A stretch of 64,000 nt of DNA from NCBI GenBank assembly GCA_947497495.1, contig CANMGT010000003.1:124001-188000 (forward strand). Direction: 5' to 3'. The notes under the pieces were generated by a model. It searched no databases, was not told the origin of the DNA, and saw only the letters and a program-made list of their open reading frames with translations. Source of the stretch: an uncultured Lentibacter sp. Lineage in GTDB: Bacteria > Pseudomonadota > Alphaproteobacteria > Rhodobacterales > Rhodobacteraceae. Shown here one piece after another: positions 50,522 through 55,191 of this stretch (its first letter is position 1; every line of letters starts with the position of its first letter). Position numbers and translations under genes: made by a program.

Positions 50522-52888
50522 GTGAGGCGCAACAAGAGAAGTGGCAGAAACGTGGTATCCCTATCTGAGAGAGCGCTCGCGCAACGGCCGACACCGTATC
50601 TGGACGAGTTGAACCCTGCGCAGCGCGAAGCTGTCGAGACGCTGGACGGGCCTGTCTTGATGCTCGCGGGGGCTGGCACGGGCAAGACCAAGGCGCTGAC
50701 CACGCGGATTGTGCACTTGCTGAACACGGGTCGTGCGCAGCCCAACGAGATTTTGGCGGTAACCTTTACCAACAAGGCGGCGCGAGAGATGAAGCTCAGG
50801 GTGGCGCGCCTGATGCAGCGCGACGTTGAGGGCATGCCTTGGATGGGCACATTTCACTCGATCTGCGTGAAGATATTGCGCCGCCACGCCGAGCTTGCGG
50901 GTCTGAAGAGCAATTTCACCATTCTGGATACGGATGACCAGCTGCGGCTTTTAAAGCAACTGGTGCAGGCCGAGCAGATTGACGACAAGCGCTGGCCTGC
51001 GCGGATGCTGGCGGGGATCATCGACAGTTGGAAGAACCGCGCGTGGACGCCTGAAAACCTGCCTGCGGGCGAAGGCAGCGCCTATAACGGGCGCGGGGCA
51101 GAGCTTTATGCGCAATACCAGCGGCGCTTGCTTGAGTTGAACGCTGTTGATTTTGGCGACTTGCTTTTGCATGTCGTGACGGTTTTCCAGAAGAACGACG
51201 ACATTTTGCAGCAATATCAACGCTGGTTCAAATACGTGCTGGTGGACGAGTATCAAGACACCAACGTGGCGCAGTATTTGTGGCTGAGGCTGCTCGCGGG
51301 CGGGCATAAGAACATCTGTTGTGTAGGCGATGATGACCAGTCGATCTATGGCTGGCGCGGTGCGGAGGTGGGCAACATCCTGAGGTTTGAAAAGGATTTT
51401 CCGGGAGCGAAAGTTGTTCGGCTGGAGCAGAACTACCGCTCGACGCCGCATATCCTGGCGGCCGCGTCGGGCGTGATCGCGGGCAACGAAAACCGGCTTG
51501 GCAAGGAGCTTTGGACCCAATCTGAAGGCGGCGAGAAAGTGCGGCTTATCGGCCATTGGGACGGCGAGGAAGAAGCGCGCTGGGTTGGCGAGGAAATCGA
51601 GGCGATGCAGCGTGGCACCCGCGGGCTTGAGAAACTGGGGCTGGACAGTATGGCCATTCTGGTGCGCGCCTCCCATCAGATGCGCGCCTTTGAAGACAGG
51701 TTTCTCACCATCGGCATGCCTTACCGCGTGATTGGCGGGCCGCGGTTTTATGAGCGGCTCGAGATTCGCGATGCCATGGCCTATTTCCGGTTGGTTGTAA
51801 GCCCCGAAGACGACCTTGCCTTTGAGCGAGTGGTCAACACGCCCAAGCGTGGGCTTGGCGATGTAGCGCAAAAGAAGATGCAAGTCGCAGCGCGCGAGAA
51901 TTTTCTGCCGCTCACTGGAGGCGCACGGCATTTGCTCGAGGCAAAGGGGCTTGGCGGAAAGGGCGCTGTGGAACTGGCGCGATTTTTGGACAACCTCGAG
52001 CGCTGGCGGGCGCTGGCGAGCCAGCCACAAGCCAGCCATGTCGAGCTGGCCGAGATCATCCTTGATGAAAGCGGCTACACCGAGATGTGGCAGAACGACA
52101 AGTCGCCAGAGGCCCCCGGACGGCTGGAAAACCTCAAGGAGCTTGTGAAAGCTCTGGAGCAGTTTGAGAACTTGCAAGGGTTTCTCGAGCACGTCAGCCT
52201 GATCATGGACAATGAACAGGGCGAAGACGAAGAGAAAGTGAGCATCATGACGCTGCACGCTGCCAAGGGTCTCGAGTTTCCGGCGGTGTTCTTGCCCGGT
52301 TGGGAGGAGGGGCTGTTCCCCTCGCAACGCTCGATGGACGAAAGCGGCATCAAGGGCCTCGAGGAAGAGCGCCGGCTGGCCTATGTGGGCATCACCCGCG
52401 CTGAAGAAATCTGCACGATATCTTTTGCCGGCAACCGGCTTGTCTATGGGCAGTGGCAAAGCCAGATGCCGAGCCGCTTTATTGACGAGCTGCCCGAGGC
52501 GCATGTTGATGTACTGACACCACCCGGCCTATACGGCGGCAACTATGGCGCTGCGCAGCCGTCTGCACAGTTTACGGGGCCCTCAAACCTTGAGACAGCG
52601 GTTTCAGAGGCAAACGTCTACAACTCTCCGGGGTGGCGGCGCATGCAAGCCAATGCGGCCCAACGCGGGGCGAGCCAGCCGAAAGCAAAGAGCAATCTCG
52701 TGATCGACGCGGTGGCCGTCTCTGCGTTTACGGAGGGCGAGCGCGTGTTTCACACCAAGTTCGGCTACGGCGAGATCATCGCAGTCGAGGGCGACAAACT
52801 TGAGATCGCCTTTGACAAGGCGGGCACCAAGAAAGTTGTCTCGCGCTTCATTGTTGCGGCAGCGGATGCGGGCAACATACCGTTCTAA
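50522..52888 (+). CDS. uvrD: UvrD/PcrA-type ATP-dependent DNA helicase
   Basis: LNPAQREAVETLDGPVLMLAGAGTGKTKALTTRIVHLL; VLVDEYQDTNVAQYLWL; CCVGDDDQSIYGWRGAEVGNIL; VSIMTLHAAKGLEFPAVFLPGWEEGLFPSQRS; exact start uncertain. Confidence 0.94.
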   Translation: MRRNKRSGRNVVSLSERALAQRPTPYLDELNPAQREAVETLDGPVLMLAGAGTGKTKALTTRIVHLLNTGRAQPNEILAVTFTNKAAREMKLRVARLMQRDVEGMPWMGTFHSICVKILRRHAELAGLKSNFTILDTDDQLRLLKQLVQAEQIDDKRWPARMLAGIIDSWKNRAWTPENLPAGEGSAYNGRGAELYAQYQRRLLELNAVDFGDLLLHVVTVFQKNDDILQQYQRWFKYVLVDEYQDTNVAQYLWLRLLAGGHKNICCVGDDDQSIYGWRGAEVGNILRFEKDFPGAKVVRLEQNYRSTPHILAAASGVIAGNENRLGKELWTQSEGGEKVRLIGHWDGEEEARWVGEEIEAMQRGTRGLEKLGLDSMAILVRASHQMRAFEDRFLTIGMPYRVIGGPRFYERLEIRDAMAYFRLVVSPEDDLAFERVVNTPKRGLGDVAQKKMQVAARENFLPLTGGARHLLEAKGLGGKGAVELARFLDNLERWRALASQPQASHVELAEIILDESGYTEMWQNDKSPEAPGRLENLKELVKALEQFENLQGFLEHVSLIMDNEQGEDEEKVSIMTLHAAKGLEFPAVFLPGWEEGLFPSQRSMDESGIKGLEEERRLAYVGITRAEEICTISFAGNRLVYGQWQSQMPSRFIDELPEAHVDVLTPPGLYGGNYGAAQPSAQFTGPSNLETAVSEANVYNSPGWRRMQANAAQRGASQPKAKSNLVIDAVAVSAFTEGERVFHTKFGYGEIIAVEGDKLEIAFDKAGTKKVVSRFIVAAADAGNIPF

Positions 52889-52901: not shown

Positions 52902-52945
52902 ACAAAAAATGGCGGCGAACCTAAAGGGAGGAGAGGTTCGCCGCC
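52902..52945 (-). ncRNA. CcsR-type sRNA hairpin 3 (terminator-proximal)
   Basis: Reverse complement GGCGGCGAACCTCTCCTCCCTTTAGGTTCGCCGCC + ATTTTTTGT: 12-bp stem, CUCCUCCC loop, U-tract. Confidence 0.85.
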
Positions 52946-52952
52946 GTATAAT

Positions 52953-52982
52953 GTACCGGTAAAAGGGAGGAGAAACCGGCAC
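52953..52982 (-). ncRNA. CcsR-type sRNA hairpin 2
   Basis: Reverse complement GTGCCGGTTTCTCCTCCCTTTTACCGGTAC: stem with CUCCUCCC loop. Confidence 0.83.
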
Positions 52983-52990
52983 AAATTTTT

Positions 52991-53020
52991 GCGTGGACAA
53001 AAGGGAGGAGAAACCCACGC
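52991..53020 (-). ncRNA. CcsR-type sRNA hairpin 1
   Basis: Reverse complement GCGTGGGTTTCTCCTCCCTTTTGTCCACGC: stem with CUCCUCCC loop; 17 bp after the DUF1127 stop codon. Confidence 0.83.
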
Positions 53021-53037
53021 AATCTCGGAAAGTCGTG

Positions 53038-53265
53038 TTAGCCGTAGACGGCCATGTAAGCTGTGGCGCGGATGGCTGAACGTGTGAGGCCCAGATCAGC
53101 CAGCTCGTGTGAGCTCAGCGCTGACAGCTCGGAAACTGTTTTGCGATACTGGCGGTTCAGTTTGACTGTCTCACCAACATTCATTGTCGCCGAAACGGCT
53201 TTGCCGATGGTTGAGGCAATTGCCATACCAACTGCGCCGGATGTGTTTGTTAAAACGTAGTTCAT
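53038..53265 (-). CDS. DUF1127 domain protein (CcaA-like, host gene of CcsR sRNAs)
   Basis: YRKTVSELSALSSHELADLGLTRSAIRATAYMAVYG; followed by CCUCCUCCC hairpins as at the R. sphaeroides ccaA-ccsR locus. Confidence 0.88.
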   Translation of the reverse strand: MNYVLTNTSGAVGMAIASTIGKAVSATMNVGETVKLNRQYRKTVSELSALSSHELADLGLTRSAIRATAYMAVYG

Positions 53266-53362
53266 ATCTCGTTACTCACTTGTGTGACTAAGTTTGTGTC
53301 TGTGTTGAGTGTTATTTAGGGGAATGCTGCAGGTGCGAAAAGGGGGCGAATGTGCAATGCCG

Positions 53363-53381
53363 CTATGCAGCATTTGCATAG
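53363..53381. promoter_or_regulatory. Inverted repeat CTATGCA-GCATT-TGCATAG between DUF1127 and mrp genes
   Basis: 7-bp perfect arms, 5-nt spacer. Confidence 0.55.
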
Positions 53382-54541: not shown

Positions 54542-54732
54542 GCTAGAGCAAAACAGCAAAATGCTGGGAAAGCATGGGAGCGCGCATGGGAAACCATGGG
54601 CGCTCTTTGTTTTTTGGCGCTCAAAAAAGCGAATCAAAGCGCCTCCAGCTGGTGGAATTGGTGGTATTCTCGAAATTTTCGCCTGTTCGGGGTCGGCTTT
54701 TGAGCCTGACTTACATGTGATGGCAAAATAAA

Positions 54733-54756
54733 TGGGATTTTGTGGGCGCTTTGGCA
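54733..54756 (+). promoter_or_regulatory. Candidate MraZ-box array (TGGGN direct repeats)
   Basis: TGGGATTTTGTGGGCGCTTTGGCA: TGGGA at 54733, TGGGC at 54743 (5-nt spacer), degenerate TGGCA at 54752. Confidence 0.45.
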
Positions 54757-54939
54757 GTGGCGCATCTGGGCACTACATTTAGTAGTAAGTGGGCGGGCTT
54801 CCGCCACAATTGGTGAGAAATTGGCTCGAACTCTCTACTACATCTAGTTTTTCAGGGAGCTGAAAGCTATATGATGTAGGATATCCCAAATTTTTCTATT
54901 GATTACCATGTAATCCCATCGTATCCCTAGTTCACAAGA

Positions 54940-55149
54940 TGAGGTTGGAGACAAAGGGGCGCTAAACGACCCCGAACATAAAAACTCCAAGTCAGGTTTC
55001 ATACAGGCACCGACTTCATCAGAACGAAGAGATCCGGCGCGCGGGCGAGCAGACATCCCCCCAGGTGGCGCGCGCAGCTGGACACCCCGCAACGCGGGAC
55101 GAGGGCGGCGGTTGATCAGTGGCAGCAGATCAACCGCCGTTTCCTTTTC
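54940..55149 (+). ncRNA. UpsM-like sRNA / mraZ 5' leader with intrinsic terminator
   Basis: Structured leader upstream of mraZ, same synteny as R. sphaeroides UpsM; ends in a 12-bp hairpin and T-rich tail. 5' end estimated. Confidence 0.65.
55106..55149 (+). terminator. Intrinsic terminator/attenuator in mraZ leader
   Basis: CGGCGGTTGATC-AGTGGCAGCA-GATCAACCGCCG followed by TTTCCTTTTC. Confidence 0.88.
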
Positions 55150-55191
55150 AAAGGCACGAATTTTGGGGAAACGATAGAGAGGCGGCCCACA

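Follow-up and report, generated by a model that had tools for sequence, protein, structure and literature searches.

What are three hairpins with one and the same loop doing behind a short DUF1127 gene, and which regulator would turn them on? The locus that raises this question lies on the minus strand of a 64,000-nucleotide stretch of DNA from an uncultured Lentibacter sp. (assembly GCA_947497495.1, contig CANMGT010000003.1, positions 124,001 to 188,000), hereafter the window. A sequence-only reading of the window had proposed a cluster of three CcsR-like, or cuckoo, small RNAs (sRNAs) 3' of the DUF1127 gene, and this is borne out: the locus is a true, ordinary cuckoo/CcsR "CIN1" member in the genus Lentibacter, with three copies. 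Loci of this type are already known. What looks new, from the sequences compared, is an LsrB/VtlR-type dyad found family-wide at cuckoo loci, though earlier papers on cuckoo RNAs, CcsR or CcaF1 may mention it. This family-wide operator and the cysteine-free regulator predicted to act on it are the part worth following.

Results

The DUF1127 gene and its hairpin tail

The first gene of the operon (53038..53265, minus strand), taken from the list of open reading frames, encodes a CcaF-like protein of 75 amino acids that matches Pfam PF06568 with 44.9 bits against a cut-off of 23.3 (E 9.8e-12). Folding of the 138-nt tail behind it (53037-52900) gave three separate hairpins at -50.1 kcal/mol (z -7.4), and 0 of 200 shuffles were as stable. 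The first stem begins about 15 nt past the DUF1127 stop codon, a little nearer than the 17 bp given by the sequence-only reading. All on the minus strand, the hairpins occupy 52989..53022 (hairpin 1, loop UUUCUCCUCCCUUUU), 52952..52983 (hairpin 2, z -4.3) and 52911..52945 (hairpin 3, z -7.0). Hairpin 3 has the predicted 12-bp stem, confirmed by the fold at -24.2 kcal/mol, and directly 3' of it stands the U-tract AUUUUUU (52904..52910), the intrinsic terminator of the operon; the plus-strand side of this hairpin has no T-run.

The stems are unlike one another, and all three carry the identical 12-nt loop UCUCCUCCCUUU. At the DNA level, the window contains exactly three copies of TCTCCTCCCTTT, each on the minus strand and within a hairpin (53011-53000, 52973-52962 and 52934-52923), where 0.12 copies would be expected with up to one mismatch allowed and no shuffle held three. 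The literal CCUCCUCCC named in the title of the sequence-only reading is absent from these loops, and the only CCTCCTCCC in the window is located elsewhere. Compared with the cuckoo loop CCUCCUCCC, the three loops have UCUCCUCCC, which agrees in eight of nine letters (the first C is U) and contains the core UCCUCCC exactly. Three tandem hairpins with a constant loop and variable stems correspond to the cuckoo family, defined as two to four hairpins in which the loop is conserved and the helices are not (PMC4504443), and their position directly 3' of a short PF06568 gene is that of the CIN1 locus, which consists of DUF1127 genes with CcsR-like RNAs (PMC10253847).

Conservation of the hairpins

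DUF1127 orthologs followed by two to five cuckoo hairpins are present in all eight Lentibacter genomes, and across these genomes 4 of the 11 counted pairs of hairpin 3 changed on both sides, with 100% of cells paired. For the wider family, 150 genera were sampled with a single genome each; a DUF1127 match was present in 110 of these genomes, and 90 loci were read. Rhodobacteraceae yielded a total of 573 hairpins, 2-14 per locus, with an invariant loop and 433 distinct 5' arms. The claim that the loop is conserved and the stems are not therefore holds over the 557 hairpins of the information profile, in which information is about 2 bits at loop positions and below 0.4 bits at most positions of the stem. 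Stems of at least 7 bp were found at 74% of motif sites, as against 9% with the flanks shuffled. Single mismatches in the family stems, read on the DUF1127-sense strand, were G·U in 172 cases and A·C in 20 (p 2e-31), and the functional RNA is therefore the DUF1127-sense strand.

As a separate observation, 14 tandem cuckoo hairpins occur at DUF1127 loci L122, L138, L163 and L179. The arrays of L139 and L163 contain near-identical repeated units, so that cuckoo arrays seem, from their sequences, to grow by tandem duplication.

Promoter and predicted operator

Transcription would start near 53307, behind a putative -10 element CTAAAT (53314..53319, minus strand; CTATAT in several relatives). Overlapping the -35 region is a predicted proximal site, CGCACCTGCAGCAT (53324..53337, minus strand), kept in Lentibacter as TTTTCGCA-NN-YGCAGCA and recurring in this form at a leuS-locus sRNA and as TGCACCTGCGGCAT at a SorX-like sRNA, both described below. 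The predicted LsrB/VtlR-type operator is the distal dyad TATGCAAATGCTGCATAGCGGCATTG (53355..53380, minus strand), about -71 to -50 relative to the presumed start, which is near-constant in seven of the eight Lentibacter genomes and weaker in L012; the exact TGCATNGCNGCATTG has a single occurrence in the own genome. The sequence-only reading had overlooked this operator, the second cuckoo locus by leuS, and the SorX-like sRNA with the same operator.

Across the family, the 450 nt upstream contain ATGC-N7-GCAT at 67 of the 77 loci that have two or more hairpins, against 3 of the 13 others (Fisher p 6e-6, uncorrected for phylogeny in a set of loci related by descent); by chance it would occur at about 0.7% of loci, assuming equal base frequencies. 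RGCRGCATTG, which lies outside the search pattern, is strongly conserved right after it. Conservation of the dyad is far above that of the core promoter, and a CCTATAT-type element follows 57-59 nt past the start of the box in 33 of 80 family promoters.

The box resembles the sites of a known regulator. In Brucella the VtlR motif is CAATGCAGCCATGCA (PMC12595884), and 60 of 80 family boxes match its reverse complement at 13 or 14 of 15 positions, the own box at 13 and those of L006/L010 at 14. Given the presumed start at about 53307, this 15-bp part of the own operator would span roughly -64 to -50, near the position of the LsrB site of PabcR1 in S. meliloti (-61 to -49; PMC8844928). The NfeR1 promoter has a TGCA-N6-GCAT box at -72 to -60 (PMC10746234). 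TGCA-N6-GCAT by itself, with 155 sites in the genome, was too common to count as evidence, which was drawn instead only from the longer motif and from conservation in the family.

An LsrB/VtlR ortholog in Lentibacter

The genome encodes one LysR-type transcriptional regulator (LTTR) that is an LsrB/VtlR ortholog (G000:C2:75334-74432; L083 3749-4835 on the minus strand, downstream region included). It matches Agrobacterium tumefaciens LsrB (PDB 9HH1; PMC11975290) over its full length with E 9e-73, the next structure scoring 115 bits, and 47 of 64 residues of the DNA-binding domain are identical. With the LTTR downstream of trxB in the alphaproteobacterial L054 as query, one protein per Lentibacter genome scored 185-200 bits and all others at most 121, genome G007 having two matching places. 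Orthologs were found in 86 of 147 alphaproteobacterial genomes, and in 24 of 33 the gene immediately follows trxB, as lsrB and vtlR do, which agrees with the class-wide trxB-vtlR gene order noted previously (PMC7486931). The regulator was not found beside trxB in the own genome, where trxB sits between lrp and ilvD. The LTTR tree was built without second-best LTTRs and without a paralog outgroup; orthology is based on scores and gene order. LsrB has been called unique to Rhizobiales (PMC11975290), with which orthologs in Lentibacter and in 86 of 147 genomes are at odds. ATGC-N7-GCAT was also sought downstream of distant LsrB orthologs and set aside as weak outside Rhodobacteraceae: it was present at 15 of 30 loci, mostly at odd distances.

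Two further sRNAs

Directly behind the regulator gene is an sRNA that matches SorX (RF02784) with 50.4 bits against a cut-off of 46.6. Upstream of it the ATGC and GCAT half-sites are invariant and the 7-nt spacer is variable at nine of nine loci, and at most loci ATGC-N7-GCAT is followed by TGCA-NN-TGCGGCAT. The second cuckoo locus (G000:C1:630590-630720; L001 1484-1620; L257) is flanked by leuS and a small gene and comprises two hairpins with anti-Shine-Dalgarno (anti-SD) loops and a third G+C hairpin, kept in seven of the eight Lentibacter genomes. Most members have YGCANNYGCAGCAT upstream, and no clear distal dyad was found there. The leuS-side sRNA carries GUCCAACAGGG, complementary to SorX; its conserved stretch GTCCAACAGGG, which varies in two members, is the complement of CCCTGTTGGAC, itself invariant in the SorX-like sRNA. 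Duplex energy between the two RNAs was no better than in shuffles, 27 of 300 being as good, because both are strongly self-folding; the conserved complementarity of 9-11 nt remains. It is possible, judging from this complementarity, that the leuS-side sRNA is a sponge of the SorX-like sRNA.

Candidate targets

Candidates were taken from one pattern search of the genome for GGGAGGA-N4-12-ATG, which occurred 49 times, as against 7 times in the reversed control. Four sites fall in one 3.4-kb carbon monoxide (CO)-dehydrogenase-type cluster (G000:C1:997759-1001168; L244-L247) with CoxG, 2Fe-2S, large-subunit and FAD-binding domains, and these four genes are candidates, on the pattern match, for joint repression by the loops. 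Further sites precede periplasmic binding proteins, a DctP protein and a polyhydroxyalkanoate (PHA) regulator. The prominence of this single one-carbon (C1)-type cluster fits the C1 effect of CcsR but may be due to chance.

Neighbouring regions

The convergent neighbour of the operon, ending at 52888, is presumably uvrD/pcrA, and the divergent upstream neighbour presumably encodes an Mrp/ApbC-type ATPase, both names being read from the translations. Elsewhere in the window, positions 54545-55190 form a long intergenic region upstream of mraZ. The corresponding region of R. sphaeroides holds the sRNA UpsM; an Rfam search of 54545-55190 gave no match.

Discussion

The organization of the locus is best explained, and probably correctly, by a CIN1-type operon under an LsrB/VtlR-like activator, possibly together with RpoH, whose hairpin loops mask GGGAGG-type ribosome-binding sites. 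A single promoter would drive the DUF1127 gene and the 3' tail of three cuckoo hairpins, and RNase E would cut the transcript to free the hairpins as sRNAs. The DUF1127 protein is probably RNA-binding and would aid maturation like CcaF1. Every loop would expose CUCCUCCC, an anti-SD sequence, and by pairing with GGGAGG-type ribosome-binding sites would repress translation of an mRNA subset, with the CO-dehydrogenase-type cluster, transporter solute-binding proteins and the PHA regulator among the candidates. The switch is predicted to be the LsrB/VtlR-orthologous LTTR as an activator bound to the dyad (about -71 to -50), and an RpoH-type sigma factor may act alongside it. Precedents for parts of this scheme exist: the ar14 RNA NfeR1 represses ntrBC through anti-SD motifs (PMC10746234), CcsR acts on flhR (PMC8307010), and VtlR of Brucella is an activator of AbcR2 and of three DUF1127 genes (PMC12595884).

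Several points weigh against this explanation. The ar14 model (RF02344) aligned all three hairpins at 43.3 bits (E 1.1e-6) and CcsR1 (RF02791) reached 24.5 bits (E 0.001), short of their gathering cut-offs of 58.8 and 65.3, respectively; the sequence-only reading had named a covariance score below threshold as a ground for refutation, and the scores are indeed below it, although these two were the best Rfam matches. Stems of the cuckoo family lack sequence conservation by definition. Three other family loci (L143, L160 and L163) pass the CcsR1 cut-off at 94-106 bits, so that the model itself performs as it should and it is the sequences of this locus that have diverged. The Rhizobiales VtlR box is GCAT-N3-TG-N3-T, from which GCAT-AGC-GG-CAT-T here is one fixed base off, and shared descent of the 77 loci tempers the association between dyad and hairpins. 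The operon in R. sphaeroides has an RpoHI/RpoHII promoter (PMC10253847), so that in that species the regulator may play a secondary part or be missing. Another DUF1127 protein, Salmonella YjiS, showed no RNA binding (PMC12501420), and GGGAGGA may be just a common strong ribosome-binding site in the own genome. Finally, A. tumefaciens LsrB needs C273 and the Lentibacter sequence contains zero cysteines, so that the thiol switch by which A. tumefaciens LsrB detects oxidants is not open to the own regulator, whose signal must be a different one.

The R. sphaeroides promoter also lends some weight to a different switch, by which the same operon and sRNAs would be turned on mainly by RpoH (heat, singlet oxygen) and the dyad would serve another regulator or fine-tune expression; we consider this a serious but less likely alternative. 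The S. meliloti RpoH1 consensus is CTTGAA-N16-CCTATAT (PMC8844928). In the search for an RpoH-type promoter that the sequence-only reading had suggested, the -10 (CCTAAAT in the own promoter, also CCTATAT in Lentibacter) fits CCTATAT, but the Lentibacter -35, TTTTCG, is a poor match to CTTGAA. At the three CcsR1-positive family loci, TTGTGC stands upstream of an RpoH-like CCCCATGTT, yet the dyad is present at the same loci, so that joint control by RpoH and the dyad is possible. That the dyad is much better conserved than the core promoter argues against RpoH as the main switch.

It is very improbable that the hairpins merely protect the 3' end of the DUF1127 mRNA and terminate it, with no activity in trans. 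The last hairpin makes a good intrinsic terminator, but a terminator requires one hairpin and no particular loop sequence, whereas 2-14 copies with one invariant loop are found here, and related RNAs act in trans, as do NfeR1 (PMC10746234) and CcsR on flhR (PMC8307010). That the functional RNA should instead be the plus strand, a CsrA/Rsm-type sponge with GGA loops in which AAGGGAGGAG loops form part of the 3' untranslated region of the presumed uvrD/pcrA, is scarcely credible and was rejected on the 172:20 asymmetry of G·U over A·C, for although plus-strand hairpins expose GGGAGGAG in their loops just past the end of that gene, the U-tract and conserved promoter both belong to the minus strand and hairpins follow DUF1127 genes throughout the family.

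If the LsrB/VtlR-like activator is accepted, the link would tell who turns on tandem anti-SD RNAs, in a type of operon hitherto described in R. sphaeroides (ccaF1-CcsR) as RpoHI/RpoHII-controlled, and it would be the same LTTR that Brucella uses to activate AbcR2 and three DUF1127 genes. A broader proposal, which we regard as evenly poised between right and wrong, is that a cysteine-free or cysteine-poor LsrB/VtlR ortholog serves Rhodobacterales as the master activator of anti-SD sRNAs, comprising the DUF1127-cuckoo operon, the SorX-like sRNA and perhaps the leuS-locus sRNA. Were this true, control of sRNAs and DUF1127 genes would be an old core of the LsrB/VtlR regulon in Alphaproteobacteria, and the Agrobacterium thiol redox switch a later addition to it.

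Comparison with known systems

Among the closest counterparts is the CcaF1-CcsR1-4 operon of R. sphaeroides (Cereibacter), in which ccaF1 (the protein that the sequence-only reading had called CcaA) is co-transcribed with CcsR1-4 and maturation proceeds via RNase E and CcaF1 (PMC10253847). Both loci have a DUF1127 gene followed by tandem UCCUCCC-loop hairpins with a terminator on the last, whereas the Lentibacter locus has three hairpins, the loop UCUCCUCCCUUU in place of CCUCCUCCC, and a promoter with an LsrB/VtlR-type dyad and no clear RpoH -35. It also fits the cuckoo RNA/CIN1 class of Reinkensmeier and Giegerich (2015), with which it shares the association with short DUF1127 genes, although other Rhodobacteraceae loci, with up to 14 hairpins, exceed the two to four of the cuckoo definition. 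With ar14/NfeR1 of Sinorhizobium (RF02344) the locus has in common three hairpins, each with an anti-SD loop, and a promoter with a TGCA-N6-GCAT box; NfeR1 differs in that it has been described as acting in trans from an RpoD-type promoter of its own rather than as the 3' tail of a DUF1127 gene. The VtlR/LsrB regulon of Rhizobiales, lastly, shares with Lentibacter the LTTR ortholog, a similar 15-bp motif, and a DUF1127 gene and an LTTR-adjacent sRNA as targets, these being predicted targets in Lentibacter, where in contrast the LTTR is cysteine-free and lies away from trxB, and the adjacent sRNA matches SorX.
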